From a virus, in IMG/VR virus record IMGVR_UViG_3300006969_000027, positions 1-26,481 of that record: a DNA stretch of 26,481 bases. One strand, 5' to 3'. Below are positions 6,701-22,826 of the stretch, piece by piece. Both the position numbers and the translations under genes were made by a program. The notes under the pieces were generated by a model, which had not been told where the DNA came from, ran no database searches, and saw nothing but the letters and a program-made list of their open reading frames with translations. Numbering within the stretch: position 1 is the first letter of the stretch; every line of letters starts with the position of its first letter.

Positions 6701-7938
6701 GACGGGGCGTCGTCCTCGGACCAGTTGCCCGCCTTGCGGACGGCTTCGTCGGACAGCCGCTCGTCCAACGCGAGCGCGTCGGCCTGCCGGTCGGGGCGGA
6801 TGACCAATGCGCTCGGGTCGTACCAGAACATGTAGTCGTCAGGGTCGACGCCGAGGATCGACAGCGCAGCCCGGCCGTAGCCGGAGTACAGCGCATCAGC
6901 AACCCGGGCCACCAGCGGCTCGATCTGGAGCTTGATGGTGGACTCTTCGATCTGCCAGGCGGACCAGTGGTTGGCAGAACCCTGGCCGAGGAGGATCTCG
7001 GCCGGCTGGTCGAGGGCGAGCGCGAGCTGGCGGATAGCCTCCTGGCGCAACTCCAGGGTCTCGGCCTGGAACGGGGTCTCGAACGTCTGCCACTTAATCT
7101 TGTCGATGTACTCGCCAGCGATCTGGACAATGATCGGGACAAGCGCGGCTGCGTTGGACTGGTCGAGCAGCGCCGCCGCCATGGCCCGCTCGATGATCTT
7201 CATGAGTCCTGCTGCGCCGGCTGCCGAATCATCCCCTGACGGAAACTCCAGCTCCTCCGGCAGAAACAGCAGCCCCGCGCCGGCCAGCCGCGAATCGATC
7301 TGGGCGAAAACCTTCTTGCGGAGCTGTTCCAACTCCCGCAAGTCGGGCAGCGCCGCCCGAACAGGGGAGTTGGCCAGGTCGTAGCGTCGCGGATGTGGGG
7401 TCCAGGCCCGAATCAGCAGGTCTTTGCCGGGGTCCAGCTCGTGCTTACCGCCGCCGTAGACATTGGATCGGTCGACGATGACCCGGCCAGCCTGCCGCCG
7501 GATCTCCGAAGTGGAGACGATGTACCAGATGTCCTTCTTGGCATTGGCAACCGACTCGGCGACGATGTAGGACTCGCCAGCGACGTAGAGCTGGATGCCG
7601 AGGGTGCGGAGAGCTTCAGCCTTCTGGGTGGGGCCACCGAACATGGTGCCAGCAACCACGGCCAGCTTCGGGTCGGAGACCTCTTCGCCGGGTCCGCCGT
7701 CTTCGTCGAGCTTGGCCAGATAGAGCCGGCACCGGGACAGTGCATTGCCCATCCAGTCGGCGGCGTAGCGCAGGGCTCCCCGGTCGTCGTAGTGGCGCCA
7801 GGCTTCCTCCTGCCACCGCTGGTCGCCAAGCTTCCAGTTTTTCCAGCTCGTCCCGTCCAGGGCAATCGACGCTGCCGCCGCGACGATGGCCTTCGGCCGG
7901 GCGGGCACAAGGTCTGCGCTGGTGCGCCGGAAGGCCAC
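3721..7938 (-). CDS. Portal protein fused to GNAT-like and zincin metallopeptidase-like domains (1405 aa)
   Basis: Residues 1 to about 450 are a phage portal: YVAGESYIVAE, EIRRQAGRVIV, DQPAEILLGQGSANHWSAW and a C-terminal ISNKDIQKTLGVD stretch. A Pro-rich linker follows at about 460-485. Two Cys modules of the form CRNPLHPGPC(R/K)GW are at about 603 and 1052, each followed by APELRRD. Between them, after a highly charged linker, is a domain (about 735-905) with GGGFSQRYNAGAEEIYHDAG and IDVGGYTWASQGYDF, resembling a GNAT-like acyltransferase fold. After the second module and a Gly/Arg-rich linker comes a zincin-type domain: HEFGH at 1263-1267 gives two zinc ligands and the catalytic Glu, and SEDFAE (Glu1338 or Glu1342) may give the third. 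Ordinary portals are about 450-550 residues. The GTG at 7938 has AGGTGAGG upstream. The tail domains may act in head maturation or be delivered to the host; that is inference. Confidence 0.85.
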   Translation of the reverse strand: MAFRRTSADLVPARPKAIVAAAASIALDGTSWKNWKLGDQRWQEEAWRHYDDRGALRYAADWMGNALSRCRLYLAKLDEDGGPGEEVSDPKLAVVAGTMFGGPTQKAEALRTLGIQLYVAGESYIVAESVANAKKDIWYIVSTSEIRRQAGRVIVDRSNVYGGGKHELDPGKDLLIRAWTPHPRRYDLANSPVRAALPDLRELEQLRKKVFAQIDSRLAGAGLLFLPEELEFPSGDDSAAGAAGLMKIIERAMAAALLDQSNAAALVPIIVQIAGEYIDKIKWQTFETPFQAETLELRQEAIRQLALALDQPAEILLGQGSANHWSAWQIEESTIKLQIEPLVARVADALYSGYGRAALSILGVDPDDYMFWYDPSALVIRPDRQADALALDERLSDEAVRKAGNWSEDDAPSEEELLRKKTWQLVLAQPTLISNKDIQKTLGVDWNIEGAEAGAKPSPPEPAPGVPQPRGLPQPPRSTETPAQEAALIVGADLIVRRALEKAGHRLLTAPRRGQFAGIPAWELHCHIPVSSGDAERLTGESWEPARALANRLGMDPDVMVDMLATYTTSLMCHGEVHDYTRFGTYVSQALDLIGHAECGHYCRNPLHPGPCRGWRRQLDVAPELRRDKDPEPRAARRSRRRTTQPGDEDRGTRRTADTGTDREAESSRGRRRNQEQVTVEEAQRVLDMTETKESKKKLPAGSDPKTDLMKSLRSSGGSAEELDEAQKRVREAMIAAYSINDRESGLRTDITDFGVYDVNGQPVAGIEIEIYNRSGFLVGTSSRTWRLDEAGRLRVTHEYLSLDRSVQGGGFSQRYNAGAEEIYHDAGVAWIDIHADIDVGGYTWASQGYDFRGDNDLRRIAAGFQRHRETLASDDPDAIEIDALLARSTPEAFIAGTHPTPYEFAMLGRSRPRSRVRNGRPVTVWTGKLLLLNTDWYGRKPITEPVRVFDSAGRHRFVAAAGAEDAWDARQDFLDAVADLSLRYADAFGEIVPAYPEDAQPNAEGRTDYAEHHHLISAAPGIAQVWLDEADELFGGMTAAAHLSCQPGEFCRNPLHPGPCKGWKKQIDKAPELRRDMDADEPPERGGGRSGGTSRAGGGRHRTASGGRSTRQARSGQVGTLDALTPGRSWWNRMSGDTGPGDYYVVNNVNIQGHLVRHGFAVRRNGIAYMVETDGPVGPNGPNLRLVDKLERVHQTLPEGSEQYQKAYNALLGRNPEDARWAREYNRRGFTSLATAGDGSTTIWNDYARTEREVALQNHASHEFGHNVAYEAGARWNNPIHDTREWLDAGTKDAQRRAPTNFEPEIIEGMHRLSLTPDHSARYPNGVTTYGVSAASEDFAESLSLYLLEGPVGFSGTGDEPVPVYFRQLFPARAKILDRMFPAVARAQRRRLRQERAAAERDRR

Positions 7939-7941
7939 GCC

Positions 7942-8250
7942 TCACCTACCGATCGAGCTGAGCATGCCGGTGATCTGGCTGAACGCGAGAAACGCGACGG
8001 GGACCAGCAGCCACGGGGAGTCTCCCCACAGCCACCACAGTGGCGCAAACAATGCCGCCACCCAGATGCTCATGCACCACTGGCACAGCAGCAGGTACGC
8101 ACGCCAGTTGGTGCAGTCGTCCGCCGGGGCATCCCGACAGAACCTGCGCACCAGCCGCATCCGCACCTGTTCGGTGATCCGATCACTGGTGATCAACCCG
8201 GTCAGCCGGGCGCAGGCCAGTGCCCAGATGACGAAGGTGAAGACCAGCAT
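7942..8250 (-). CDS. DUF1360-like membrane protein (102 aa)
   Basis: The protein has an N-terminal hydrophobic segment (LVFTFVIWALACARLTGLIT), a charged stretch with DRITEQVRMRLVRRF, then WRAYLLLCQWCMSIWVAAL and a second hydrophobic region (LLVPVAFLAFSQITG). The ARLTGLI...D.I..R order followed by YLL.C.WC.S.W matches DUF1360 membrane proteins, found in actinophage head modules and in bacteria. Function is unknown; a holin-like or membrane-docking role has no direct support. It lies between large terminase and portal, three bases from the portal GTG, and is surely co-transcribed with them. Confidence 0.75.
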   Translation of the reverse strand: MLVFTFVIWALACARLTGLITSDRITEQVRMRLVRRFCRDAPADDCTNWRAYLLLCQWCMSIWVAALFAPLWWLWGDSPWLLVPVAFLAFSQITGMLSSIGR

Positions 8251-8289
8251 GACCAGAAGCGTAGGAGATCTTACGACGGTTGCGTAGCG

Positions 8290-9741
8290 TTAACCGACGG
8301 AAACGCCCGCAACCGGCAGCCGGCCGGAGGTCTCCACCCCGCCGGGGACGGCCACGTTCGCGCGTCCGCGCTCCCGCGAACGTAGGTATGCCTGCGCGTG
8401 GACCAGCGCATCGATTCGGTCCGGAGAGTCCACATCCTCGTCCGGTACCCAGGTGCACTGCTGGTCTTCCAGCTCGACGAACTGCCCCACGTGGTGGACC
8501 CGCCCCTGCTCGTAGCGCATGGCGGTCGGCTCGGCGCGCAGCCGTTTCCCGTGCAGCGCGTGTACATCCTTCATCGGTGGTGCCCCGCCGGGAGGGAACA
8601 GCCCCTCACGCTGCATCTCCTTGTACGCGTCGCCCATGACCTGGGTCAGCCACTGCTTGCCGAAGTTGTCCTCGTAGATGAGCACGTTGGCGTCCAGAGC
8701 CAGGAACAGCTCCCACGCCCGCCGCGCGCCGGCTCGACCGGAGATCTGCTTGGACACGTCGGCGAGCACGTAGTCCTCGTTGTCCACCCCACGGCCCACC
8801 GCGACGATTCCCATCTCGTCCCCGGTGCCGGTACCGGAGGGGTCGACCCCCACCGCGACCATCTTCATCTCCGGCCGCTGCTCCGGCTTCACCCGGTACT
8901 TTTCGATCAAGGCGTGATTCCACAGGGCGCCTTCGACGTCTTCCAGCAGCTCCCCGTGTAGCTCCTGCCGACCGACGGTGGTTCCCTCGTACTCCTTGCG
9001 GAACTCGGCGATGGTGTCCTGGGACAGGTTGGCGAAGTTCTCGTAGGTGGAGCCGGTGGTGACCCGGACCGCCAGGTCCCCAGCCTTCCACCGCCGGTAC
9101 CAGTCTTTGATCAGCTTGATGGGCTTGGGGGTGGTGGTGACCACACACCGGGGACGTCCACCGGGCAGGTCCGCCCGCAGCGAAGGCATGATGCCTTCCA
9201 GCCACACCGCATGCGTGTAGCGCCACTTGCCCAGCTCGTCCAGCCACGCGCCGGCTGCGTTGTAGCCACGGCCGGTGTTCTCGTCGTCGACCCCCTCGAA
9301 GTAGATCTGCTGTCCATCCTTCAACAGGGTGATCATCGGCTTGGGGGCTTTGGCGTAGTGGTAGTCGACCCCCTTGACGTAGCCCTTACGGTGCAGGACG
9401 GCGATGATCCCCGATGGTCCCTCGATGCAGAAGGTGCGGGTGTCGGCGAGGGTTTGGCCGACGACCAGCCATTGGGTGACGTTGCCGGCCCGGTCCCGAG
9501 GGAATTTCAGCGCTTGTTCGACGAGCCACTCCGCTCCGGTGCGGGTCTTCCCCCAGCCTCGGCCGGTCAACATCAGCCAGATGAACCAGTCCCCGGTGGG
9601 AGGGTGCTGTTCCGGCCGGGCGACCCACCACCACTCACCGATGGAGATGTCGTCGAGAACCCACGGCTCCTGCTTCCGCAGCCACTCCTCCTGGACCTGC
9701 GCCGGCAGGGTAGCCAGCCGTTCCAGTGGGGACAGCGACAC
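8290..9741 (-). CDS. terL: Terminase large subunit (483 aa)
   Basis: ATP-driven DNA packaging motor and headful or cos nuclease, acting at the portal. The ATPase half shows Walker A GRGWGKT at residues 60-66, Walker B AWLDE with Asp168 and Glu169, and a coupling motif VTTTPKP at 201-207. The RNase H-like nuclease half shows Asp300 in VGVDPSG, Glu357-Asp358 in LIYEDNF, and Asp441 or Asp444 in DRIDALVHA. Length is normal. The GTG start at 9741 is supported by GGGAGG about nine bases upstream. It is the first gene of the leftward head operon. The likely small subunit is about 7.5 kb away (17305-17859), separated by rightward genes, which is an unusual split. Confidence 0.95.
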   Translation of the reverse strand: MSLSPLERLATLPAQVQEEWLRKQEPWVLDDISIGEWWWVARPEQHPPTGDWFIWLMLTGRGWGKTRTGAEWLVEQALKFPRDRAGNVTQWLVVGQTLADTRTFCIEGPSGIIAVLHRKGYVKGVDYHYAKAPKPMITLLKDGQQIYFEGVDDENTGRGYNAAGAWLDELGKWRYTHAVWLEGIMPSLRADLPGGRPRCVVTTTPKPIKLIKDWYRRWKAGDLAVRVTTGSTYENFANLSQDTIAEFRKEYEGTTVGRQELHGELLEDVEGALWNHALIEKYRVKPEQRPEMKMVAVGVDPSGTGTGDEMGIVAVGRGVDNEDYVLADVSKQISGRAGARRAWELFLALDANVLIYEDNFGKQWLTQVMGDAYKEMQREGLFPPGGAPPMKDVHALHGKRLRAEPTAMRYEQGRVHHVGQFVELEDQQCTWVPDEDVDSPDRIDALVHAQAYLRSRERGRANVAVPGGVETSGRLPVAGVSVG

Positions 9742-9841
9742 CGTGGACCTCCCATGTTGATCTGGCGCCAGGGTAGCCGGCGGACAGCTTCCCCCGCAGC
9801 GTGCAACATGTATGATCTGGACAGACAGAACGGAGACCGGG
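9742..9841 (+). promoter_or_regulatory. Divergent control region with a rightward leader motif
   Basis: This 100-base gap separates the leftward terminase from the rightward gene at 9842. A TATGAT box at 9811-9816 lies about 25 bases before the ATG, and ACGGAGACC just before it supplies the ribosome-binding site. No good -35 box is seen at the expected spacing. The layout TGTAT-x-x-T, CAGACA, ACGGAGACC recurs upstream of the gene at 11952, which suggests a shared promoter or leader element. No clear leftward promoter for the terminase is seen. Confidence 0.4.
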
Positions 9842-10106
9842 ATGCCCCACCCACCGACAGATGCCTGCGCCGACGACCACTGCTACTCCCACGACGAGGA
9901 CGAGCCGCTGGCTGCCGGAACGGTTGCCTACATCACCTGTGGTGAGTGCCTGCACCTGTACCAAACGGCTGGGGACCTGGAACGGGCCTACGTCGAGACC
10001 ATGCCCAAGCCGGGTCCCGACGCCAACGGCTTCGTCTGGCCGGAGATCCGTCCCGCAGCCGGCCGAAGAAATCTTCTTCTGTCCCTACTGTTCGCACGAC
10101 TTCTAG
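9842..10106 (+). CDS. Two-part zinc-ribbon protein, reading frame interrupted
   Basis: The ATG at 9842 follows ACGGAGACC and encodes MPHPPTDACADDHCYSHDED, then ITCGECLHLYQTAGDLERAY (first Cys pair, CGEC) and NGFVWPEIRP. The continuation expected for this kind of actinophage protein, EEIFFCPYCSHDF and a stop at 10104, is present but in the +1 frame. The join must lie near 10048-10060, where CGT CCC GCA read as CGTC CCG would restore the product of about 87 residues. In the original frame the ORF runs on to 10360 as a low-complexity shadow. Either a programmed +1 shift, a natural mutation or a sequence error explains this. Two CxxC pairs suggest one zinc site; function is unknown. Confidence 0.6.
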
Positions 10107-10115: not shown

Positions 10116-10538
10116 TTGCCCGCCGTGATCGATCTGCCCGTTGCGCGTGGCCTGCTGGCCCGTGCGGTCCTGACCCAGGGGCCGAGCTTCGTCTACTCGG
10201 CCACCGAGCCAGGCGACGGGACCTCCAGCACATGCCTCAACGCCCCTGTCACCGACGAGCTGTTGGAGATGCTGGGCCAGGAAGTGGACAGCATCCCAGC
10301 GGACGACCCACGCCGGAGGACCGGCTGCCTGATCGGAGTCGCCCTGACCCTCCATGGTGAGACCCGCCATCTGGTCCAGCGGTGGGTTGGGTCGAGCGTG
10401 GGGACCATCCAGGAGGGCATTCCGGGTCTGATGACCTACGCCGCGCGCCGGTACTTCTCCGAGGCGCAGGAGGCGCAGGACGGAGGGGCCACCTGGGGGG
10501 ATGCCTACGACCGGGCTGAGACATCGTGGACCACCTGA
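10116..10538 (+). CDS. Conserved actinophage hypothetical protein (140 aa)
   Basis: The TTG start at 10116 is chosen because AGGAGGAAG stands directly upstream. The product begins MPAVIDLPVARGLLARAVLT and contains TQGPSFVYSATEPG, a single Cys stretch (TSSTCLNAPVTDELLEML), DDPRRRTGCLIGVALTL and an acidic helical C-terminus with AQEAQDGGATWGDAYDRAE. It has no membrane segment or signal peptide. The TGCLIGVAL segment is seen in short unassigned proteins of Streptomyces-type phages. It is the second gene of the rightward block, nine bases after the zinc-ribbon gene. No biochemical role can be proposed. Confidence 0.75.
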   Translation: MPAVIDLPVARGLLARAVLTQGPSFVYSATEPGDGTSSTCLNAPVTDELLEMLGQEVDSIPADDPRRRTGCLIGVALTLHGETRHLVQRWVGSSVGTIQEGIPGLMTYAARRYFSEAQEAQDGGATWGDAYDRAETSWTT

Positions 10539-10557
10539 CGGCCGGGGGGGACGTCTG

Positions 10558-10692
10558 ATGGACGAGTACCAGGACGCCACGAATCATGATCACACGACAT
10601 ACACCTGGCGGCGGCTGTTCGTGGACGTCGTGTTGACGGTGCTGTGCGTCGGAGCCCTGCTCGCGTTGGCAGTGTGGTCGCCGTGGGCCTGA
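10558..10692 (+). CDS. Small single-span membrane protein (44 aa)
   Basis: The product begins MDEYQDATNHDHTTYTWRR and then enters one hydrophobic helix (VDVVLTVLCVGALLALAVW). A G-rich run about eight bases upstream of the ATG is a weak ribosome-binding site. An earlier in-frame ATG at 10501 lies inside the previous gene and adds a shadow-like Arg/Gly-rich stretch, so 10558 is preferred. Overlaps the next gene. Function is unknown. Confidence 0.6.
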   Translation: MDEYQDATNHDHTTYTWRRLFVDVVLTVLCVGALLALAVWSPWA

Positions 10693-10832
10693 GGAAGGTC
10701 GCGGCCGGCATCATCACCGCCTGCGCCATCATCTGCTTCATCCCCGCCGTGGCCATGGGCTTGCCGATCTGGATTCTGTTCTGGCCACCGGCCACCGTGG
10801 TCATGTCCTGGGCCTGGGCGGCGGACTCATGA
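10683..10832 (+). CDS. Small two-segment membrane protein (49 aa)
   Basis: Starting at the GTG at 10683, the product is MGLRKVAAGIITACAIICF, then IPAVAMGLPIWILFWPP and a final hydrophobic stretch ending WAWAADS. It is nearly all membrane-embedded. GTG codons at 10674 or 10683 are possible starts; neither has a strong ribosome-binding site, so coupling to the preceding gene is likely. The TGA overlaps the ATG of the next gene by four bases. No family is recognised. Confidence 0.55.
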   Translation: MGLRKVAAGIITACAIICFIPAVAMGLPIWILFWPPATVVMSWAWAADS

Positions 10833-11281
10833 GGCTGTCCCGGCCGTGCTACGACAAGATGCACCGCTGCCCCGGCTGGGCTGGCGGTGGGGGCCGGTAC
10901 GCCCGGGTACAACGGTGTACGGACGGCCGGCTGGTTGGTACCCACGACAACACCCTGTACACGAAGCGCCTGTGGTGGCTGCGGTTCAACCACTGCACCG
11001 CGTGTGACGTACTGGTGTTGCCGTATGCGGTGCGGTTCCTGGACCCAACCAACTGGCGGTCCGAGATCCGGATGCAGCTCATGCGGCTGGAGAACCGGAC
11101 CTACGGTCTGATCATCGAACGAAACCGGTGGGAAGGCGAGCTGACGTTCTCGGTTGCGGTGTTCCTGGACGAGCTGCCCCGTCGCCGTGTGCTGGGCTTC
11201 GGCATCGACGTAGGGCGTCGGGCGCTGACCGTCGGATACGCGTGGCGGAGGAAGAAGACAAACCCGTGTCGAGACTCTTGA
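10829..11281 (+). CDS. Conserved Cys-containing actinophage protein (150 aa)
   Basis: The N-terminal half has RPCYDKMHRCPGWAGGG, then GRYARVQRCTDGRL and LWWLRFNHCTACDVLVLPY, with several paired Cys (CxxC in HCTACD) that could hold a metal. This half matches a type of small actinophage protein of unknown function. The C-terminal half (about residue 85 on, ENRTYGLIIERNRWEGEL, FSVAVFLDELPRRR, GFGIDVGRRALTVGYAW) reads like a separate beta-rich protein, so the gene may be a fusion of two small genes. The ATG overlaps the previous stop. The last bases overlap the next gene, whose GTG lies at 11266. Confidence 0.75.
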   Translation: MRLSRPCYDKMHRCPGWAGGGGRYARVQRCTDGRLVGTHDNTLYTKRLWWLRFNHCTACDVLVLPYAVRFLDPTNWRSEIRMQLMRLENRTYGLIIERNRWEGELTFSVAVFLDELPRRRVLGFGIDVGRRALTVGYAWRRKKTNPCRDS

Positions 11282-11565
11282 CCGCGTACGAGGCTGGCGC
11301 GGTGCTCGGGGTGGGTGAGGCAACCATCCATCGTTGGGCATCGCGCCGGCTGCTGCCGTACGTCCGGGTCGACGAGGGACGCAAGAGTGGGCGTCGGTTC
11401 GCCGAGGAGGACGTGTTGGGAATGCTGCATATTCTGTGGCTTCTCGCGGAGCGGGAGGTGGGTGGTGAGGAACCGGGGCAGGGGCCTACGGAAGTGCCGC
11501 TACGACGGCAAGACCATCTTCCGCACCTGGGATCAGGCTCGGAAGGCGCTGAGCCGGCGGGCTGA
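11266..11565 (+). CDS. MerR/excisionase-type helix-turn-helix DNA-binding protein (99 aa)
   Basis: The GTG at 11266, with GGAGGAAG about 13 bases upstream, gives MSRLLTAYEAGAVLGVGEAT, then IHRWASRRLLPYVRVDEGRK. This is the classic winged HTH of excisionase-like and BldC/MerR-like proteins: a helix ending AYEAGAVLGV, a recognition helix ATIHRWASR, and a wing with VRVDEG..SGRRFAEEDV. A short helical tail follows. The product probably acts as a small regulator or directionality factor. No integrase is visible, so a regulatory role is more likely than excision. It overlaps both neighbours in the rightward block. Confidence 0.75.
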   Translation: MSRLLTAYEAGAVLGVGEATIHRWASRRLLPYVRVDEGRKSGRRFAEEDVLGMLHILWLLAEREVGGEEPGQGPTEVPLRRQDHLPHLGSGSEGAEPAG

Positions 11566-11951: not shown

Positions 11952-12206
11952 ATGCCGCCCCGGATGACGCACCTCTACTTCGTGGTGCCCGACGATGACA
12001 TCGATGCCCGCCTGGTTGTCGTGGAGTCGCTACTGAAGGCGCTGCGTGAAGGCTGGGTCGTTGGTTCCGCCGTCTCCACTGCCACATCCGTTCACTACAT
12101 CCTCGGGAGGCGTGGTGCGTATCCCTACCCTGTTCCTGCGGGACCCCCGTACCCTCCGGGTCCGCCCGGAAGTCCGACCGGGGTGCGAGTGGGTTCTCGA
12201 CGGTGA
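11952..12206 (+). CDS. Hypothetical protein (84 aa)
   Basis: The product begins MPPRMTHLYFVVPDDDIDAR, then LVVVESLLKALREGWVVGSA, which looks like a small alpha/beta domain. The last 30 residues are Pro/Gly-rich (YPYPVPAGPPYPPGPP) and coincide with the start of the next gene in another frame, so the tail may be incidental. GGAG about nine bases upstream supports the ATG at 11952; an alternative ATG at 11964 would drop four residues. It is the first gene after the promoter-like site. No family is recognised. Confidence 0.55.
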   Translation: MPPRMTHLYFVVPDDDIDARLVVVESLLKALREGWVVGSAVSTATSVHYILGRRGAYPYPVPAGPPYPPGPPGSPTGVRVGSRR

Positions 12207-12600
12207 AGGCCAAGCCACCCGCATGTACGACGGGATTGGCCTGCTGTTCGACGGTGCCGGCTGGTACCTGAGCGGTAGCCGATCCGCCAGCGGGCAGGAG
12301 TCCTGGCGAGCCGTCGGCGAAGACGGCCGGCTGATGTCCTGGATAGCTGAGGGACTTGGCGAGGCGCAGACGCTCATCCCCGGCACCTACGAACTGTGCG
12401 GTCCGGACATCGTAGGCAACCCGGAAGGCTTCGCCGAGCGGGTGCTGATCCGGCACCAAGGGCTTCCCGGATTGGACAACGTACCGCGCAGCTACGACAG
12501 TCTCTCCGACTTTCTGCGGAGCTGGCCCCATGAAGGGGTGGTCTGGCACCATCCAGCCGGCAAGATGGCCAAGCTCCGCTCCACTGACTTCCCCACCTAA
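12115..12600 (+). CDS. RNA-ligase-like protein lacking the nucleophilic lysine (161 aa)
   Basis: The GTG at 12115 follows GGGAGG by four bases. The product opens with RIPTLFLRDP, then RPGCEWVLDGEGQATRMYDG, GTYELCGPDIVGNPEG at 90-105, and a C-terminal block HEGVVWHHPAGKMAKLRSTD. This order matches the DUF5565-type RNA ligase family: motif I (K-x-DG), motif III/IIIa, motif IV (EGVVWHH) and motif V (K-x-K). The motif I lysine that carries AMP in these ligases is Met37 here (TRMYDG). The usual RREVK-like stretch after motif I is also absent (YLSGSRSASGQ), and motif V reads KLR. Glu93, Glu140 and Lys153 are kept. As it stands it should not adenylylate, so it may be a binding protein or a decayed ligase. 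Overlaps the previous gene by 92 bases. Confidence 0.65.
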   Translation: MRIPTLFLRDPRTLRVRPEVRPGCEWVLDGEGQATRMYDGIGLLFDGAGWYLSGSRSASGQESWRAVGEDGRLMSWIAEGLGEAQTLIPGTYELCGPDIVGNPEGFAERVLIRHQGLPGLDNVPRSYDSLSDFLRSWPHEGVVWHHPAGKMAKLRSTDFPT

Positions 12601-12618: not shown

Positions 12619-12726
12619 ATGCCGTCCTACATCCGCAGGGTCATCCTGCTCGCTGCCGTCATCGGCGGGATCGGGTTGGCCTTCTGGGTCAAGAACACAT
12701 TGTTTCTCATGGAGGTGAAGCCTTGA
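12619..12726 (+). CDS. Tiny membrane protein 1 of the array (35 aa)
   Basis: The product is MPSYIRRVILLAAVIGGIGL, then AFWVKNTLFLMEVKP: a short basic N-terminus and one hydrophobic helix. GGAAGGAG lies upstream of the ATG with a gap of about nine bases. The TGA overlaps the next start. First of twelve tightly coupled genes. Confidence 0.6.
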   Translation: MPSYIRRVILLAAVIGGIGLAFWVKNTLFLMEVKP

Positions 12727-12809
12727 TCAGCCGTGTACTGGTCGCCTTAGGCGTCCTGGCCATCGTCGCCGGGGTGCTGGGGGCAATGCTCAACGGAGGT
12801 GGCCGGTGA
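12723..12809 (+). CDS. Tiny membrane protein 2 of the array (28 aa)
   Basis: A TTG start overlaps the previous stop and has GGAGGTGAAG five bases upstream. The product, MISRVLVALGVLAIVAGVLG, then AMLNGGGR, is essentially one transmembrane helix. The Gly-Gly codons near its end double as the ribosome-binding site of the next gene. Confidence 0.5.
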   Translation: MISRVLVALGVLAIVAGVLGAMLNGGGR

Positions 12810-12907
12810 GTCCGGGGGAGAAGCTCGGGATGAAGATGCTCGCCTGGGCCACTGGGATCTTCCTGGTCGTCTGGGCCTGTGAACGGATTGGGGTGAGCGG
12901 CAAGTGA
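12806..12907 (+). CDS. Tiny membrane protein 3 of the array (33 aa)
   Basis: The GTG overlaps the preceding TGA by four bases and follows GGAGGTGG. The product MSPGEKLGMKMLAWATGIFL, then VVWACERIGVSGK, has one hydrophobic segment and a single Cys. The stop overlaps the next GTG. Confidence 0.5.
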   Translation: MSPGEKLGMKMLAWATGIFLVVWACERIGVSGK

Positions 12908-12999
12908 GCTGGGGAGCAGGGTTCATTGGGTTTGTCATCGCCCTCGGTACCGGGCTAGCGATCGGCTACATGATGGGCCTCGGGCAGGCAGCATGCTGA
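12904..12999 (+). CDS. Tiny membrane protein 4 of the array (31 aa)
   Basis: The GTG overlaps the preceding TGA (GTGA). The product MSWGAGFIGFVIALGTGLAI, then GYMMGLGQAAC, is a Gly-rich transmembrane helix ending in Cys. It has only a weak ribosome-binding site, so translational coupling is likely. Confidence 0.45.
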   Translation: MSWGAGFIGFVIALGTGLAIGYMMGLGQAAC

Positions 13000-13229
13000 C
13001 CGCGCCAGCTCCCAGCCCGGGACCCGGCGGTCCGGTCATCGACCCAGGCCCCATCCAGACCGACCCCATGGGTTGGCTGCAACGGTTCATGGCCTGGGAT
13101 GGAGCGTGGCCGCTGATCGTCGCCGTGGTCCTCACCGCGATCGGTATCGGCGTCGCCCGGCGTCACCTTGCCCTGTTCGCGTTCCTGACCGGCACCGCGC
13201 TCGGCTTCTTTGTGGGGAGCGTGCTGTGA
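12993..13229 (+). CDS. Membrane protein 5 of the array (78 aa)
   Basis: This is the largest member of the array. A Pro-rich N-terminus (MLTAPAPSPGPGGPVIDPGP) is followed by two hydrophobic segments, WPLIVAVVLTAIGIGVA and LALFAFLTGTALGFFVGSVL. The ATG overlaps the end of the preceding gene by seven bases. The topology is probably a hairpin in the membrane with the Pro-rich end outside or in the cytoplasm. Function is unknown. Confidence 0.6.
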   Translation: MLTAPAPSPGPGGPVIDPGPIQTDPMGWLQRFMAWDGAWPLIVAVVLTAIGIGVARRHLALFAFLTGTALGFFVGSVL

Positions 13230-13381
13230 AGGGAAAGAAGCCCGTAGTGTTCCTCATCGTTGCGCTGATCGTCTTCGGTGTGGCGTACCGGCCGGACATT
13301 GCCGCCGACACGCTCACGGGACTCCTCGGCGGCTTCCGGTCCCTGATCGAAGGTGCCGGAGACGTCTGGAGGAGCCGCTGA
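13226..13381 (+). CDS. Membrane protein 6 of the array (51 aa), paralogue of the next gene
   Basis: The GTG overlaps the preceding TGA. The product begins MKGKKPVVFLIVALIVFGVA, one transmembrane helix, then YRPDIAADTLTGLLGGFRSL and an amphipathic tail. Its order (basic start, helix, Y/A-x-PDIAA, Gly-rich amphipathic helix) is the same as in gene 7, so the pair looks like a tandem duplication. The pattern is familiar from small proteins of actinobacteria and their phages, with no known role. Confidence 0.6.
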   Translation: MKGKKPVVFLIVALIVFGVAYRPDIAADTLTGLLGGFRSLIEGAGDVWRSR

Positions 13382-13539
13382 TGGTCAAGAAGATCCTGAC
13401 CTGGGGCGGCATCGCCTTCCTGATCCTGTACGTCGCCATTGCCCCGGAGGCTGCCGCGAACGTCTTCAAGTCGCTCGGTGGGGGCCTGATGGACATAGCG
13501 GAAGGCTTCGGCGACTTCTTCGTCAGCCTGATCGCATGA
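13381..13539 (+). CDS. Membrane protein 7 of the array (52 aa), paralogue of the previous gene
   Basis: The product begins MVKKILTWGGIAFLILYVAI and continues APEAAANVFKSLGGGLMDIA with an amphipathic tail ending FFVSLIA. It aligns along its length with gene 6 (APEAAANVFKSLGGG against RPDIAADTLTGLLGG). The ATG shares one base with the preceding stop, and GGAGGAGC is upstream. Confidence 0.6.
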   Translation: MVKKILTWGGIAFLILYVAIAPEAAANVFKSLGGGLMDIAEGFGDFFVSLIA

Positions 13540-13700
13540 GATCGATCCTGGTGCCCGTGGTCGTCGGTGCGATGACCACGGGCTGGTTCGCGTTTCTGTA
13601 CACCTGGCTGGAGCGGGACCACTTCGACCCCGGGGTGCTGATCTTGTGTCTGCTGCTGACGATGCTCACATTCCGCGTGTTGACCAGGAGGAGCCAATGA
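13536..13700 (+). CDS. Membrane protein 8 of the array (54 aa)
   Basis: The product has two hydrophobic stretches, MRSILVPVVVGAMTTGWFAF and GVLILCLLLTMLTFRVL, joined by a charged loop (LERDHFDP). The ATG overlaps the preceding TGA by four bases (ATGA). It is probably a two-span membrane protein of unknown role. Confidence 0.6.
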   Translation: MRSILVPVVVGAMTTGWFAFLYTWLERDHFDPGVLILCLLLTMLTFRVLTRRSQ

Positions 13701-13843
13701 AACGTCTGCTTGTCGGGGGGCTGTGCACCGCCGCCCTCCTGTTCGTGCTGATCTGGGGAGCCGGCGGCAGCCCTGTCTGGGTGCTCGTCGCCGCCGGCTT
13801 CGTCGTAGCTGCGGTAGTGATGCAAGTGAGGATGAGGGACTGA
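13697..13843 (+). CDS. Membrane protein 9 of the array (48 aa)
   Basis: The product MKRLLVGGLCTAALLFVLIW, then GAGGSPVWVLVAAGFVVAAV and a short basic tail, has two transmembrane segments around a GAGGSP turn. AGGAGGAG stands five bases before the ATG, which overlaps the previous stop. Confidence 0.6.
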   Translation: MKRLLVGGLCTAALLFVLIWGAGGSPVWVLVAAGFVVAAVVMQVRMRD

Positions 13844-14007
13844 TGCCGAACTGGTTCACGTGTGGGGTGGTGGGTCTATACGTGCTGGTCAACGCCACTG
13901 TTGCTTACGTGGCGTTGGACACCAACTCGTTCCCGCTGAAGGTGTTGGCGGTGGTCATGGTCCTGGCAGGATGCGTGGCAGCGTTCCGGGTAGGGAGGCA
14001 CCGATGA
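13843..14007 (+). CDS. Membrane protein 10 of the array (54 aa)
   Basis: The product MPNWFTCGVVGLYVLVNATV, then AYVALDTNSFPLKVLAVVMV and a basic tail (FRVGRHR), has two transmembrane segments with a short polar loop. The ATG shares one base with the preceding TGA. Confidence 0.6.
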   Translation: MPNWFTCGVVGLYVLVNATVAYVALDTNSFPLKVLAVVMVLAGCVAAFRVGRHR

Positions 14008-14099
14008 ACCGGAGCTGGGGCGGTAAGAGCCTCGGGTTGGCCATCGTGCTCGCGCTCCTGGTTGCGGCGTATTGGAACGGCTGGATCCCACCGTGGTGA
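14004..14099 (+). CDS. Tiny membrane protein 11 of the array (31 aa)
   Basis: The product MNRSWGGKSLGLAIVLALLV, then AAYWNGWIPPW, is one transmembrane helix with a Trp-rich end. GGGAGG precedes the ATG, which overlaps the previous stop. Confidence 0.55.
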   Translation: MNRSWGGKSLGLAIVLALLVAAYWNGWIPPW

Positions 14100-14191
14100 A
14101 CCTGACCCCGGGGGACTCCCGCACCGGCTGCTACATCACGCTACTGATTGTGGGGGCAGCCCTGGTGCTACTGGCCTTGGTCCTGCTGTAA
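14096..14191 (+). CDS. Tiny membrane protein 12 of the array (31 aa)
   Basis: The GTG at 14096 overlaps the preceding TGA; another GTG sits at 14093. The product MNLTPGDSRTGCYITLLIVG, then AALVLLALVLL, is a C-tail-anchored hydrophobic helix. The TAA lies four bases before the terminator hairpin and ends the rightward array. Confidence 0.5.
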   Translation: MNLTPGDSRTGCYITLLIVGAALVLLALVLL

Positions 14192-14195: not shown

Positions 14196-14235
14196 CGACG
14201 CCCCCCCGGGGTCAGCGGCCCCGGGGGGGGCGTCG
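14196..14235. terminator. Strong bidirectional hairpin terminator
   Basis: A 16-bp arm (14196-14211) pairs with 14219-14235, with one extra G, across a seven-base loop. It lies between the rightward array ending at 14191 and the leftward gene ending at 14261. The core CCCCCGGGGTCAGC is the same as in the hairpin at 281-314. Confidence 0.85.
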
Positions 14236-14260: not shown

Positions 14261-14719
14261 CTACTTCAGCGCCAGTACCGTGACGGTGGCCGCGCACTCC
14301 CTGCCGGGATCGTGCGGGTACGAAGTCTGCCGATCAGGCGAGCCGGGGACTTCCCGGCCGCTGACCTTGATCGAGCAGGTCACTGAGCGCCGCTTGTCGA
14401 TCGGCCCCATCGGGGTGGCGGTGAGGAAGAACTGGACAGACTCGAAGCGTGGAACGGTGATGACCTCGTAGTAGAGATCAGTCCAGCTCTGCTCGGTCCA
14501 CTCCTGCCGACCCTTCAGGTTGCTAATGCTGTGGGCACTGACCCACGCCGCGCTTGGCCGGTCACCGATCTTACCGATCTCCACCCTCAGCTCGACGATC
14601 CTTGCGTCGTCATCCCGGGTCGGGGTCTGGGTGGTGAACACCGGCCCGAACGTCTGGAGCAGGCCGACGGCAACAGCCACCACGATCCCGGTGACGAACA
14701 GGGTCTTGACCTTAGTCAA
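14261..14719 (-). CDS. Membrane-anchored secreted protein, possibly MmpS-like (152 aa)
   Basis: The TTG at 14719 is chosen because GGAGG lies six bases upstream; a longer frame to 15082 would run across the divergent gene. The product begins MTKVKTLFVTGIVVAVAVGL, an uncleaved signal anchor, then an extracellular part with ARIVELRVEIGKIGDRPSA, a central helical stretch and a beta-rich end (ESVQFFLTATPMG, RSVTCSIKVSGREVPG, GRECAATVTVLAL). A Cys pair near the C-terminus with V-T-C-S-I-K-V-x-G resembles the MmpS-like beta fold. The gene at 16210-16602 has a similar plan. It stands alone on the leftward strand between two rightward blocks. The family call is tentative. Confidence 0.6.
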   Translation of the reverse strand: MTKVKTLFVTGIVVAVAVGLLQTFGPVFTTQTPTRDDDARIVELRVEIGKIGDRPSAAWVSAHSISNLKGRQEWTEQSWTDLYYEVITVPRFESVQFFLTATPMGPIDKRRSVTCSIKVSGREVPGSPDRQTSYPHDPGRECAATVTVLALK

Positions 14720-15107: not shown

Positions 15108-15910
15108 GCGCCATGTTCTCCATCACCTCCAGGGCACCGGACGGTGCAGTCCTCCACGGCTCGCTGACCTACACCCCGCCGCCGGCTCTGCTGCTCGGTG
15201 TGGACACCAGCAATGCCGACCTGGCCCATGACCTCGGTGACTACCCGAAGATGACCTACCACCGGGTGTTCTCCCCGAACGCATGGCCGAACTGGACCTC
15301 CGGGAAGTTGGCCACCCTGCCCCTGTCCATCACCCCACACTGCTCCTGCGACGGCCCATGGGTGCCGGAGGACTTCCGCGCCTGGTGTGCCAAGGCCACC
15401 CGCCCGGTGTACGCCACATGGAAGCACGAACCGATGAAGAAGGTGTCCCCAACGGACTACCAGCACAACTCGGCGGAGATGGCGGCCATCGCGGCGGAGT
15501 ACCCGTTGATCCTCGGCACTGGTCCGGTGTTGACCCGTTTCTGGGTCGACGACGCGCGGGGCGATCCATCGTTGTGGTGGTTCGCGGGTGCCAGCTTCTG
15601 GGGGATGGACTGCTACAACGGGGTCGACGACCGGTACCGCCCACCGGGGGAGATGTTCGGTACGGCTGTCGAGTTGGGTCACGGCTACGGAGTACCGGTG
15701 CTCATCCCGGAGTGGGGTGTGGAGCGGTTGGCGTTCGACACCAGCGGGGAGCAGCGTGCCCAGGTGCTGCGGGATGCAGTGACGTTCCTGCGCTCCGCGC
15801 GGGTGGTTGCCGCCGGCTGGTGGAATGTGGCTGGGTCTCCGTCGCGGCTGTCGGCCGGCCCAGAGAAGGCCACGTTGCAGACCTTGGTCGACCAGCAAGG
15901 TACGCTCTGA
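15104..15910 (+). CDS. TIM-barrel glycoside hydrolase-like protein (268 aa)
   Basis: The GTG at 15104 overlaps the preceding TGA, with GGAG eight bases upstream. After a short beta N-terminus (to about residue 28), a barrel-like fold begins at LLLGVDTSN. Two strands end in acidic residues with the spacing of clan GH-A retaining enzymes: ATWKHEPM (Glu109, candidate acid/base) and VLIPEWGVE (Glu203, candidate nucleophile). FWGMDCYNG between them is typical of a strand carrying aromatic substrate contacts. The plan resembles GH26-like or endoglucanase-like actinophage proteins annotated as hydrolases or minor tail proteins. No signal peptide or wall-binding domain is seen. A target in the cell envelope or capsule is inferred. 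It is followed two bases later by a tRNA. Confidence 0.7.
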   Translation: MSAMFSITSRAPDGAVLHGSLTYTPPPALLLGVDTSNADLAHDLGDYPKMTYHRVFSPNAWPNWTSGKLATLPLSITPHCSCDGPWVPEDFRAWCAKATRPVYATWKHEPMKKVSPTDYQHNSAEMAAIAAEYPLILGTGPVLTRFWVDDARGDPSLWWFAGASFWGMDCYNGVDDRYRPPGEMFGTAVELGHGYGVPVLIPEWGVERLAFDTSGEQRAQVLRDAVTFLRSARVVAAGWWNVAGSPSRLSAGPEKATLQTLVDQQGTL

Positions 15911-15912: not shown

Positions 15913-15986
15913 CGCGCGGTGGTGCAGCTCGGCAGCACGCCAGCCTCATAAGCTGGAGGTCAGCGGTTCGAATCCGCTCCGCGCCA
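15913..15986 (+). tRNA. tRNA with CAT anticodon (tRNA-Met type)
   Basis: The 74-base cloverleaf has a seven-position acceptor stem, D stem GTGC/GCAC, anticodon stem CCAGC/GCTGG with loop CTCATAA, and T stem AGCGG/CCGCT with loop TTCGAAT. CCA is not encoded. Position 1 is C and position 72 is C, so the first acceptor pair is a mismatch, a trait otherwise typical of initiator tRNA (C1-A72). The three G-C pairs of an initiator anticodon stem are absent. Elongator Met, or Ile2 with a modified C, are also possible. It lies two bases after the hydrolase gene. Confidence 0.9.
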
Positions 15987-16015
15987 CATACTGGTCCGGA
16001 CGGGTTTGCGGACAC

Positions 16016-16060: not shown

Positions 16061-16213
16061 ATGGACGCAATCGTCTTCCTACTGCTCGTCGGCGCTGCGG
16101 TGTGTTTCGGTCTCGCAGCGTTCGGAGTAGGTGGCCGGATCAACCTGGTCGCGCTCGGACTGTTGCTGTGGGTGCTGACCGTACTCCTACCCGCAGTGTC
16201 CGGGCTGGACTAG
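16061..16213 (+). CDS. Small two-span membrane protein (50 aa)
   Basis: The product MDAIVFLLLVGAAVCFGLAA, then FGVGGRINLVALGLLLWVLT and a short tail, has two hydrophobic segments around a GVGGR turn. No clear ribosome-binding site is seen because the hairpin ends seven bases before the ATG; folding of that hairpin could control access. Its TAG overlaps by four bases (CTAG) with the stop of the convergent leftward gene. It resembles the array proteins at 12619-14191 and may act in lysis, which is inference. Confidence 0.6.
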   Translation: MDAIVFLLLVGAAVCFGLAAFGVGGRINLVALGLLLWVLTVLLPAVSGLD

Positions 16214-16602
16214 ACAGTGCAGCCCACCGTTCCTGATGTCCGCCGTACGCCGGTCCCCTGGCCACCAGTACGCCGGTTGATGATGGCCACAATCAGCTCC
16301 CCACTCACGGTCTGTGTGGCGTAGAGCGTCAACCGCAGACCCCGAGGGTAGGTGACCGTCCGCTCGAACGGCGAAGTGCGGACTCGGGCGATCTCCTGCG
16401 CGACACCTAGTCCCCGCTCCGGGACGACCGCACCCACGGCGAGCTTGATCACCACGTCCTGTGGACGGTTGGCCGGCTTGAACGTCACCACCAGCTCATA
16501 GAGGTCTTCGTCGGAGTTGGTAGTGACGGCAACCACCCTGTACGCACCAACCACTACCAACGCCGCCAGCAACGTGACAACGACGGTCCGAACCTTCAGC
16601 AA
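16210..16602 (-). CDS. Membrane-anchored secreted protein, MmpS-like (130 aa)
   Basis: The TTG start gives MLKVRTVVVTLLAALVVVGA, a signal anchor, followed by a beta-rich external domain: DLYELVVTFKPAN, DVVIKLAVGAVVPE, SPFERTVTYPRGLRLTLYAT and SGELIVAIINRRTGG, ending VGCTV. The succession of a VTYP-like strand, L.LYAT and G.L.V.I resembles the MmpS/transport-accessory beta fold of actinobacteria. Its architecture (K-V-(K/R)-T anchor plus beta domain) repeats that of the gene at 14261-14719, so the two may be distant paralogues. It is the last gene of the long leftward operon. Confidence 0.6.
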   Translation of the reverse strand: MLKVRTVVVTLLAALVVVGAYRVVAVTTNSDEDLYELVVTFKPANRPQDVVIKLAVGAVVPERGLGVAQEIARVRTSPFERTVTYPRGLRLTLYATQTVSGELIVAIINRRTGGQGTGVRRTSGTVGCTV

Positions 16603-18071: not shown

Positions 18072-18298
18072 CAGACGACCCCCTCCGCCCGTAACTGGGC
18101 CATGGTCCGCTCAATGGCATCCAGGCTGGGTACGATCCCCATCTCCGCAGCCTTGGCCAGGATGTCGTCACATCGCCCCACGTTGATCACTGGCCCACCT
18201 TCGACCAGCCCGTACCGGCGGGAGGACTCGATGGCCAGCAGGGTCGCAGCCAGATCTACAGCCTGGCGCCAGTCGGCTGGAGTCACCGGATCCTTCAC
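18071..18298 (-). CDS. Hypothetical helical protein (75 aa)
   Basis: The GTG at 18298 overlaps the dioxygenase stop (GTGA). The product begins MKDPVTPADWRQAVDLAATL, then LAIESSRRYGLVEGGPVINV, and ends with a helix (SLDAIERTMAQLRAEGVV). It is acidic, soluble and of a size common among actinophage accessory proteins. Immediate coupling to the TET/JBP-like gene may suggest a partner role, but nothing else supports that. Confidence 0.65.
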   Translation of the reverse strand: MKDPVTPADWRQAVDLAATLLAIESSRRYGLVEGGPVINVGRCDDILAKAAEMGIVPSLDAIERTMAQLRAEGVV

Positions 18299-19182
18299 CG
18301 CTCCACCTTCTCCCGCACCCGGACCGCCCGATCGGCCTCGTCCTCAGCCGTACCGCACTCGGCCATCTTTGTACGGTAGTACGCGACAACCGAGATCCGC
18401 TCGGCGGGACACGACTCGCACGGCCCGAACAGCCGGGATCCGCAGGCGCAGATAATCGCCGCGTTGGCGTGCCACTCGTGAGCATCCATCAACAGCAGGT
18501 CACCGTCCTTCAGGTCCACCGCCACCCGGTACTCCGGGAACATGAGCTGCCCACCCGTATAGGAGCCGCGCCGCAGGCAGGTGATGGTGGAGAAGCCGGC
18601 TTCCAGGTCGCCCTTGTCGGTGTGCATGCCGGTGGAGTAGGTGTTGTTGACAGTGACGGTGGTAAACGGGGTGCCAGGCACTACCCAGTCTTCGACAGTC
18701 CGGGCGGCGTAGTCGGCCTGGATGGCATACCGATCGGGGACATGCTCGGCGAGCTGTTCACCGATGGCGGAGAGGAGCGGTTGGAGCCGCCGCCAGCGTG
18801 GCAGGTTCTTCCCGGTCCAGACGGTGAGCCGGCAGTAGCGGGTTTGGCCCATGGGGTCGACGGCTCCGACGACCATGCTGGGGGTGTCGGCGGCGTAGGT
18901 GCGGGTGGCTGCGGCGTTGGGTACGCGGTCGGTTCCGCTGGCGAGTCCTCGGTTTTGTGAGCGGATGTCGCGCAAAGAGTGTAGTATGCCGTATATCTCC
19001 CGATTCTGGGTGTATCGGGTGAGGGCTGCGGGGAGGTAGACGCAGAGGGGTCGCCCGTCGGGTTTGGTGACGCGGGCTGGTCCGGTGAGGAGTGCGTCGT
19101 AGTCTCGGGGTCCGAGGACTTTTCCGATCTTGGGTTCGAGGTCTTCTTTGCGGAGCCGGGTCCGCAGCCGCAGTTCGATCAT
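18295..19182 (-). CDS. TET/JBP-like Fe(II)/2-oxoglutarate DNA base dioxygenase (295 aa)
   Basis: Predicted to hydroxylate the 5-methyl group of thymine or 5-methylcytosine in DNA using Fe(II), oxygen and 2-oxoglutarate. The double-stranded beta-helix core is at about 165-275. NNTYSTGMHTDKGD gives the HxD metal pair (His187, Asp189); YTGGQLMFPEYRVAVDLKDG is the expected GG.L..P strand; MDAHEWHANA gives the distal His (235 or 238); and Arg262 or Arg270 after it would hold 2-oxoglutarate. An inserted CACGSRLFGPCESC (Cys245, 247, 255, 258) looks like a zinc knuckle. The N-terminal half (TKPDGRPLCVYLPAAL, PSMVVGAVDPMG, RYCRLTVWTGKNL) resembles phage TET/JBP proteins. AGGAG supports the ATG. It is downstream of a kinase, FAD enzyme and transferase in one operon. 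A generic 2OG oxygenase is the alternative. Confidence 0.75.
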   Translation of the reverse strand: MIELRLRTRLRKEDLEPKIGKVLGPRDYDALLTGPARVTKPDGRPLCVYLPAALTRYTQNREIYGILHSLRDIRSQNRGLASGTDRVPNAAATRTYAADTPSMVVGAVDPMGQTRYCRLTVWTGKNLPRWRRLQPLLSAIGEQLAEHVPDRYAIQADYAARTVEDWVVPGTPFTTVTVNNTYSTGMHTDKGDLEAGFSTITCLRRGSYTGGQLMFPEYRVAVDLKDGDLLLMDAHEWHANAAIICACGSRLFGPCESCPAERISVVAYYRTKMAECGTAEDEADRAVRVREKVER

Positions 19183-19186
19183 GGGT

Positions 19187-19384
19187 TCAGCTCCTGGTGC
19201 GGTCCCATTGTTCTCTCAGCCATGCGTCTTCCTCATCCCAACGTTGTCGCTGTTGTTCGGTTGCCGCTGCCAGGTCGCCGAGGAGTGGGGTGGGCACGGC
19301 GGGGTGGTGGTGTGGCTGAAGGAATGGTTCGTCTCGGCTGGGGCGCACCAGCCGGCGGAGGAGGCGAGCCGGGCAGGTCGCCAT
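19187..19384 (-). CDS. ORF that may be the 3' part of a frame-disrupted gene
   Basis: From an ATG at 19384 the frame gives 65 residues: MATCPARLLRRLVRPSRDEP, then PAVPTPLLGDLAAATEQQRQ and a charged end (RWDEEDAWLREQWDRTRS). By position-specific GC (second position lowest) and by protein-like composition this frame looks more coding here than the overlapping frame of 19216-19461. The stop is four bases before the dioxygenase ATG. It may be a separate small gene with a weak start (GAAGG upstream) or the proper C-terminus of the gene beginning at 19461. Confidence 0.4.
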   Translation of the reverse strand: MATCPARLLRRLVRPSRDEPFLQPHHHPAVPTPLLGDLAAATEQQRQRWDEEDAWLREQWDRTRS

Positions 19385-19461
19385 TCGATAGAACCTTCGC
19401 CATGGGTCCAGTATCGGCTTAGGGCTTCCCGTTGGGCAGCTAGCTGTGCGGGGGTGGTCAC
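19216..19461 (-). CDS. Hypothetical protein, 3' part possibly out of frame (81 aa)
   Basis: The GTG at 19461 overlaps the preceding TGA (GTGA), a strong sign of a real start. The N-terminal part, MTTPAQLAAQREALSRYWTH, then GEGSIEW, recalls the YWxHGEG module of actinophage proteins, also present in the maturation protease here. After about residue 28 the composition turns to Thr/Pro/Ser/His (SHTTTPPCPPHSSATW), unlike a real protein, while a different frame becomes protein-like. A -1 shift near 19385-19400 would join the two. It is either a short real gene or a broken or recoded one. Confidence 0.4.
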   Translation of the reverse strand: MTTPAQLAAQREALSRYWTHGEGSIEWRPARLASSAGWCAPAETNHSFSHTTTPPCPPHSSATWQRQPNNSDNVGMRKTHG

Positions 19462-19772
19462 TCGTACTCCGATGTTTCACGTGGAACAGCACGGTAGTCG
19501 GCGACAACGGGGGTTTTGACGACGAAGCCGGAGAGCATCCGGGCAGTGTCCAACGCCCGGGTGGGGTTGCGGGTAACGAGTGCCAGCTCCCATTTGATCT
19601 CGGTGGTGTCGAGGATTCGGCTGGTGAACACCATGTAGACCGGATCGGCGTCACGGGCTTCCCGTTCCCGGCGAAACCGTTCCCGGCGAGACCGTTCCCG
19701 GGTCCAGTGTTGTTCCATCGGTGAGTTGGGGGCTGGGCGAAACTCGACCGGTGGCCAGGTCAACTCCACCAC
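19458..19772 (-). CDS. Hypothetical protein with an Arg/Glu repeat segment (104 aa)
   Basis: The GTG at 19772 overlaps the end of the kinase gene; ATG at about 19718 (MEQHW) is an alternative. A highly charged stretch, WTRERSRRERFRREREARDA, comes from a DNA repeat (19662-19701). A compact domain follows: DPVYMVFTSRILDTTEIKWE, then LALVTRNPTRALDTARMLSG. It lies between the base kinase and the dioxygenase in the hypermodification operon, so a role there is possible but unsupported. The end of the gene contains a parS-like site (19473-19488), so codons VPRETS also serve that sequence. Confidence 0.6.
   Translation of the reverse strand: MVELTWPPVEFRPAPNSPMEQHWTRERSRRERFRREREARDADPVYMVFTSRILDTTEIKWELALVTRNPTRALDTARMLSGFVVKTPVVADYRAVPRETSEYE
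19473..19488. other. parS-like ParB/Spo0J binding site
   Basis: The 16 bases TGTTTCACGTGGAACA read on the other strand as TGTTCCACGTGAAACA, which fits the bacterial parS consensus TGTTNCACGTGAAACA exactly. It lies in the coding end of the gene 19458-19772. No second copy was seen in the window. Whether host ParB or the phage ParB-like protein (22121-22816) binds it is unknown. Confidence 0.65.
19662..19701 (+). repeat. Short tandem repeat, 15-base unit
   Basis: CCGTTCCCGGCGAAA, then CCGTTCCCGGCGAGA, then a partial CCGTTCCCGG stand head to tail. On the complement strand they encode the Arg/Glu-rich stretch of the gene 19458-19772. The 15-base period keeps the frame, so slippage could change the length of this segment by five residues. 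Confidence 0.75.
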
Positions 19773-22118: not shown

Positions 22119-22120
22119 GG

Positions 22121-22816: not shown

Positions 22817-22826
22817 GGTCCCGAGC

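Follow-up and report, generated by a model that had tools for sequence, protein, structure and literature searches.

An array of twelve overlapping genes for tiny membrane proteins in a virus record, with a component from an un-named actinomycete protein family

In Gordonia phages, up to four diverse holin-like transmembrane (TM) genes have been described, none of them duplicated (Pollenz et al. 2022, PMC9671378), and phages of the DR cluster carry four overlapping TM open reading frames (ORFs) as a distal cassette (PMC9671378). Streptomyces plasmids contain three to six spd genes each, which are highly diverse and include an interacting integral membrane member (PMC4170104). For the tiny leaderless bacteriocin EntDD14 (enterocin DD14) of Firmicutes, the bPH_2 proteins DdE and DdF were reported to be essential in export, which sets a precedent in function for bPH_2 working together with tiny hydrophobic peptides (PMC8657885). 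Here, we describe an array of twelve overlapping genes for tiny membrane proteins (g1 to g12) at positions 12619-14191 on the plus strand of the virus record IMGVR_UViG_3300006969_000027, whose 26,481 bases are referred to as the window. One of its genes, g7, belongs to a host-derived family that is linked to bPH_2, which lay beyond what the preliminary description of the locus, made from the sequence alone, could see. Full-text word searches of the open-access subset of the literature retrieved no array of tiny TM genes in a phage with more than four members, which is weak evidence of absence.

Anatomy of the array and its conservation

All twelve frames are present, and each encodes a protein with one or two hydrophobic segments (sixteen in total by the Kyte-Doolittle criterion). 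The eleven junctions overlap by 4, 4, 4, 7, 4, 1, 4, 4, 1, 4 and 4 bases, and translation would start at ATG in seven genes, at GTG in four and at TTG in one (Table 1). The preliminary description, which had reported twelve overlapping genes for membrane proteins of 28 to 78 amino acids (aa), overlaps of one to seven bases and a gene number far above a holin/antiholin pair, was thus borne out. The two genes starting at 13226 and 13381 (g6 and g7), which it had regarded as tandem paralogues, are indeed paralogous (34% identity, shuffle z 8.6-10.6). Further tiny TM ORFs were observed outside the array at window positions 10501-10692, 10644-10832 and 16061-16213, and a tiny one-TM ORF at 139-276 (plus strand) looks by eye like one at L005 13395-13544 (minus strand) of the related contig G004, which is introduced below.

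To describe such chains, a detector was used that joins ORFs of 24-110 aa with a 19-residue Kyte-Doolittle window of at least 1.6 and a spacing of -12 to +25. Its output for the window was exactly the 12-gene chain, while dinucleotide shuffles of the whole window (n = 100, both strands) gave a longest chain of 1. Only one further chain of five or more genes was detected in the initially gathered loci. In 127 phage loci comprising about 1.39 Mb of distinct DNA, other chains of at least four genes were found in G004 alone (re-fetched pieces and a sister contig included), with a detector that had no independent positive control. Pairing with the anti-Shine-Dalgarno (anti-SD) sequence pointed in the same direction. 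For the 12 starts the mean was -7.0 kcal/mol, while 77 further NTG codons within the array averaged -2.5 kcal/mol (p = 4e-5), and the 10 starts of the G004 array were likewise stronger than 68 other NTG codons (p = 1e-4). The claim that ribosome-binding sites are built into the preceding genes holds for most starts; however, g1 has its site in the intergenic region, g8 has none and that of g12 is weak. Having little or no SD sequence, g8 and g12 would depend on the four-base stop-start overlaps.

A terminase scan yielded 26 loci; no DNA match to the window was present in the phage collection. The informative relative is G004 (IMGVR_UViG_3300050498_000117, 65,134 bases; terminase 86% identical), in which an RNA-ligase gene, ten tiny TM genes (a1 to a10; L029:1037-2380) and homologues of the downstream genes follow in syntenic order. 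The frames are thus kept as ten such genes at the same locus of a related phage, a check that the preliminary description had suggested. A sister contig of G004 was identical over 10,014 bases and therefore provides no independent evidence. A more distant relative (G005, terminase 67%) has an Amidase_2 gene but showed no array and a different gene set at the locus, and the contig G003 ends before the array position. Shuffle tests of all 120 pairs of window and G004 genes identified g7/a6 (z 30), g8/a7 (z 29), g6/a6 (z 11.5) and g4/a4 (z 9.5) as homologous, and g5/a5 (z 4.1) and g11/a9 (z 3.1) as plausible only. Identities to the G004 counterparts were 45-54% for g4, g7 and g8. With dS near saturation, the nonsynonymous (dN) and synonymous (dS) rates were 0.48 and 0.89 for g7/a6 and 0.38 and 1.65 for g8/a7; this pattern of dN below dS indicates purifying selection on the central array genes. 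Because shuffles gave no chain longer than one, SD pairing is stronger at the predicted starts and G004 carries a syntenic array, we conclude that the twelve array frames are real genes.

A host family behind g6 and g7

A profile built from g7, g6 and a6 was run once on the species-genome collection and matched 8 loci (L058-L065), all in Micromonosporaceae (Micromonospora, Asanoa, Spirilliplanes and one metagenome-assembled genome). The g7 protein is 62-77% identical to these eight chromosomal proteins across all 52 residues, and g6 showed 36-45% identity in four of the eight loci. At each of them the relative of g7 is a lone gene, with the other array members absent. Comparison of g7 with L058 gave a dN of 0.16 and a dS of 0.83 (dN/dS of about 0.2), and the Eisenberg moments of the two proteins were 0.54 and 0.56. 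The likeness extends to the whole architecture, as g6 and g7 share full-length homology, one TM segment and a C-terminal amphipathic stretch with this actinomycete tiny protein. Judged by these alignments, the phage carries in g7, and in the diverged g6, copies of a tiny membrane protein that is conserved in hosts.

In the class as a whole, the g7 family was present in 49 of 197 sampled genomes (E of 0.001 or better). We examined 47 host loci, 39 of which were distinct (L066-L073 repeat L058-L065), and a bPH_2 gene (PF03703) was located just downstream on the same strand at 33 of the 39; since the best-scoring loci were taken, this fraction holds for good family members. Six of ten ORFs near host relatives of g7 that were checked against Pfam proved to be bPH_2; g7 itself had no match in Pfam. 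Proteins of about 50 aa with a single TM segment that adjoin bPH_2 genes across actinomycetes (L058-L065, L080-L108) make up an un-named family that deserves a definition of its own. In a tree of the family, g7 was placed among the Micromonosporaceae rows and g6 grouped with the G004 protein with a support of 75/77 on a very long branch. The tree is poorly resolved (52 columns, 14 of 26 inner branches open) and was therefore not used to prove a single acquisition.

Because the homologues of g7 lie in Micromonosporaceae, the host of the phage is probably a relative of this family; the phage, which is from soil, probably infects Micromonospora-like bacteria. The searches of host genomes covered the g7 family, g8, g4 and g10. 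In 200 Micromonosporaceae genomes, g8 gave four weak matches (E 0.005-0.009), which lie inside open frames of 169-170 aa; in 121 such genomes, g4 gave one weak match (E 0.0098) and g10 gave no match. These three genes appear to have no convincing host homologue there. A search of the plasmid collection with g7 returned a single match (E 0.2) in a chromosome-sized Nonomuraea record. That record, L053 (NZ_LT559118.1), is 11.85 Mb long and sits in the collection as 'plasmid I'.

Lysis genes elsewhere and a proposed role

Lysis, or a reservoir of holin-like genes, had been put forward in the preliminary description as a role for the array. The contig G002 (IMGVR_UViG_3300006880_000037) overlaps window positions 1-10053 and, because the 10,053 shared bases are 99.98% identical, evidently represents the same phage or a near-identical one. 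At its other end it encodes an r1t-type holin (L035:1236-1463; 60% identity to the G004 holin, E 4e-25), directly adjoined by a gene for a 298-aa protein (L035:1466-2362) whose matches were N-acetylmuramoyl-L-alanine amidases in the PDB (E 2e-7) and genes annotated as lysin A in Rhodococcus phages. This amidase-holin pair lies about 22 kb beyond base 1 of the window, some 35 kb away from the array. In G004, an r1t holin (PF16945, E 4e-26) occupies contig positions 29841-30059, compared to 1037-2380 for the array there; Pfam recognised no endolysin among the 74 G004 proteins, and the gene next to the holin received no assignment. The array neither adjoins an endolysin gene nor is it the only holin source of the phage, and the amidase and r1t holin on G002 led us to reject a lysis cassette as its main role.

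The array could still be an expanded distal holin/antiholin cassette, in which several pore formers or timers modulate lysis alongside the r1t holin. Such cassettes have precedents in the Gordonia actinophages, with up to four holin-like TM genes, and in the distal cassette of the DR phages (PMC9671378), all twelve array proteins have one or two TM segments, and g6 showed a weak match to a PHROG holin profile (E 0.029). However, a canonical amidase and r1t holin exist elsewhere in the phage and an r1t holin in G004, none of g1-g10, the proteins scanned, matched a holin family in Pfam with E up to 1, and g7 is the copy of a conserved host protein, kept by purifying selection. We consider such a cassette unlikely, and the array may have an accessory part in lysis timing.

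We tentatively favor, at somewhat less than even confidence, an accessory operon for membrane modulation that is coupled in translation and has one component derived from the host; in it, g6 and g7 would act on the host bPH_2 protein, and it would not serve lysis. The anatomy of the genes suggests that translational coupling would keep the roughly twelve tiny integral membrane proteins at a constant ratio, and these would insert into the cytoplasmic membrane of the host. There, g6 and g7 may contact the bPH_2 partner of the host or imitate it, and the whole cassette could tune the host membrane in infection, be it its integrity, the exclusion of other phages or the tolerance of membrane-active proteins. 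That a canonical endolysin-holin pair exists elsewhere in the phage suggests that the array does not execute lysis. In a bolder version, which we rate as decidedly improbable, about a dozen microproteins would form a membrane machine around a captured and duplicated copy of the small subunit of a bPH_2 membrane system common to actinomycetes; g6 and g7 would dock on the bPH_2 protein of the host, the others would redirect or shield the system, and the host machinery for membrane protection or peptide export would then serve the phage. If true, phages would have a new way of taking over a membrane, and a host protein family without name or function would become accessible.

Several observations weigh against the membrane-modulation operon, the weak holin match of g6 being one. 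The link between g6/g7 and bPH_2 is one of genomic context in hosts only; bPH_2 was lacking at six of the 39 host loci (L074, L075, L084, L086, L087 and L091), and neither the window nor the G004 pieces L029, L030, L031 and L005 yielded a bPH_2 gene. Six genes (g1, g2, g3, g9, g10 and g12) had no recognisable syntenic counterpart in the shuffle tests against G004, and with g11 seven of the twelve are without a confident homologue there. In addition, the non-syntenic pair g3/a1 reached a z of 6.2, which matches or exceeds the weak syntenic pairs, and weak z values therefore carry little meaning. Because of these seven genes and the high-scoring non-syntenic pairs, the array may be a loose collection instead of one machine. 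The same seven genes would fit a gene nursery, in which tiny hydrophobic ORFs pile up with little joint function since short TM proteins arise easily. This explanation seems very improbable to us, given the overlaps of one to seven bases in the window, the strong SD sites in both phages, the conservation of g4, g7 and g8 at 45-54% and a dN below dS for g7 and g8.

Surroundings of the array and comparison with described systems

Most of the genome is encoded on the other strand than the array. The minus strand carries, from 9741 to 494, the structural genes (terminase, portal fusion, MuF-type and protease) and, from about 26 kb down to 16 kb, a DNA-modification block. These two flank a plus-strand block of about 10.1-15.9 kb with a helix-turn-helix (HTH) gene, an RNA-ligase family gene and then the array (Table 1). 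Relatives of the HTH gene were observed in two copies in G004 (L005 123-251 and 2187-2369, minus strand), and a second ORF there (804-1430, minus strand) matches a stretch of the RNA-ligase gene, which suggests local duplication. The inverted repeat 3' of g12 was not reported by a scan for terminators based on T runs.

Table 1. Coordinates of the array genes and of adjacent features in the window
Feature	Position	Strand	Length (aa)	Start codon	TM segments	SD pairing (kcal/mol)	Remarks
HTH gene	11272-11565	+					PF12728
RNA-ligase family gene (phrog_14301)	12046-12600	+					PHROG E 6e-32; ends 18 bases before g1; syntenic G004 homologue 59% identical
g1	12619-12726	+	35	ATG	1	-8.9	No recognisable G004 counterpart
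g2	12723-12809	+	28	TTG	1	-8.8	
g3	12806-12907	+	33	GTG	1	-9.0	
g4	12904-12999	+	31	GTG	1		Glycine-patterned, Cys at terminus; G004 a4 45% identity, shuffle z 9.5
g5	12993-13229	+	78	ATG	2		N-terminus rich in proline, then TM segments; architecture as G004 a5, sequence match weak (z 4.1)
g6	13226-13381	+	51	GTG	1		Diverged tandem copy of g7 (34% identity)
g7	13381-13539	+	52	ATG	1		Amphipathic C-terminal stretch; copy of Micromonosporaceae chromosomal protein
g8	13536-13700	+	54	ATG	2	+0.6 (none)	ATGA overlap; G004 a7 49% identity, shuffle z 29
g9	13697-13843	+	48	ATG	2	-10.3	
g10	13843-14007	+	54	ATG	2		
g11	14004-14099	+	31	ATG	1		Weak WGG-SL match to G004 a9 (z 3.1)
g12	14096-14191	+	31	GTG	1	-3.5 (weak)	
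Inverted repeat, long, G+C	14196-14235						Just 3' of g12; candidate transcription terminator without T run, read in sequence
Anchored extracytoplasmic protein	14261-14710	-					Beta-rich, divergent; array neighbour
Anchored extracytoplasmic protein	16210-16602	-					Beta-rich, divergent; array neighbour

Three anchored extracytoplasmic beta-rich proteins like those next to the array were also observed near the G004 array (L029 2436-2840, 2846-3304 and 5017-5400, minus strand). The two window proteins were considered as MmpS-like; Pfam gave no match, and a structural model (pLDDT 68.5) had no PDB match below E 0.001. The MmpS likeness is presumably no more than a resemblance, with no fold match behind it. 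Exclusion proteins are often tiny membrane proteins, and the array might accordingly be a superinfection-exclusion or anti-defence cassette, whose small proteins would keep the DNA of other phages out or weaken abortive infection that acts at the membrane. The preliminary description had named superinfection exclusion together with envelope stress, and either may apply. The anchored neighbours would suit this role, as would an accessory operon that is divergent from the late genes and accompanied by RNA-ligase and HTH genes; however, g1-g10 showed no named exclusion or defence homologue in Pfam and PHROGs (PADLOC was not scanned), and we regard a dedicated exclusion cassette as rather unlikely.

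Downstream of the array, the plus-strand gene at 15110-15910 was tried as an endolysin and dropped, since no Pfam, PHROG or convincing PDB match was obtained and the AlphaFold model was unusable (pLDDT 33). The protein has its best matches (E about 1e-37) in genes on two Micromonosporaceae chromosomes, with no phage genes nearby. Conserved HEP and PEWG motifs are present in the protein, which we take to be like those of a glycoside hydrolase barrel, and a tRNA-Met (CAT) gene (15913-15987, plus strand) follows directly at its 3' side. The minus strand at 18295-22876 holds a DNA hypermodification block with a TET/JBP oxygenase (PF12851), a flavin adenine dinucleotide (FAD) oxidoreductase (PF01266), an amino acid:DNA transferase (PF18724), a ParB-like gene and a P-loop protein (19760-20413; kinase or terminase-like). 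In the structural region, residues 6-580 of a 1405-aa ORF (3721-7938, minus strand) constitute a portal protein (phrog_776), followed by 800 further residues; the G004 counterpart has 1596 aa. The C-terminal part contains HEFGH, presumably a zinc-metalloprotease-like motif. G004 also encodes a release-factor-like protein with an RF-1 domain (PF00472; L029 5773-6087, minus strand).

The predicted host is mycelial, a growth form in which a Spd-like multi-protein membrane assembly could help phage DNA or products across septa. Like the Spd operons, whose sets differ between plasmids and include an integral membrane member that binds TraB and another Spd protein, the array would be a specific set of proteins with interacting membrane members; the analogy is one of style and is drawn from descriptions (PMC4170104). 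Unlike the Spd operons, with three to six genes and TraB (PMC4170104), the array goes with no FtsK/TraB family among the 74 G004 proteins scanned, and the sole match of g7 in the plasmid collection was the chromosome-sized record described above. A Spd-like assembly is therefore, in our view, the most improbable of the roles considered.

The family of tiny host proteins linked to bPH_2 resembles g7 in sequence over its whole length. It differs in arrangement: hosts have one gene, or now and then two neighbouring copies, in most cases upstream of bPH_2, whereas in the phage both copies belong to an array and a bPH_2 gene was not found. The YdbS/YdbT-type bPH_2 pairs with leaderless bacteriocins share with it the genetic pairing of bPH_2 with a very small hydrophobic or amphipathic peptide (PMC8657885). 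The Firmicute peptides, unlike g7, are secreted bacteriocins, and the likeness is one of genetic pairing (PMC8657885). Comparison provides a testable handle on the array, in which one protein copies a conserved un-named host protein paired genetically with a PH-domain membrane protein across actinomycetes.

With the Gordonia and other actinophage holin-like cassettes, the array shares a build of adjoining, overlapping genes whose small TM proteins are diverse and poorly conserved between phages, and which sometimes lie distal to the endolysin (PMC9671378). In contrast to the Gordonia cassettes, which have at most four genes with one to four TM segments each (PMC9671378), the array has twelve genes (ten in G004) for smaller proteins, mostly of 28-54 aa, includes a pair that is host-derived and duplicated, and occurs alongside a separate endolysin-holin pair. 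It thereby parts 'many small TM genes' from 'holins', which actinophage annotation now tends to equate. Tiny membrane proteins are the least annotated portion of phage and bacterial genomes, and the array consists of almost nothing else. We conclude that it is a variant of the small-membrane-protein cassette, three times the size of those in Gordonia phages and with one component from an un-named host family.

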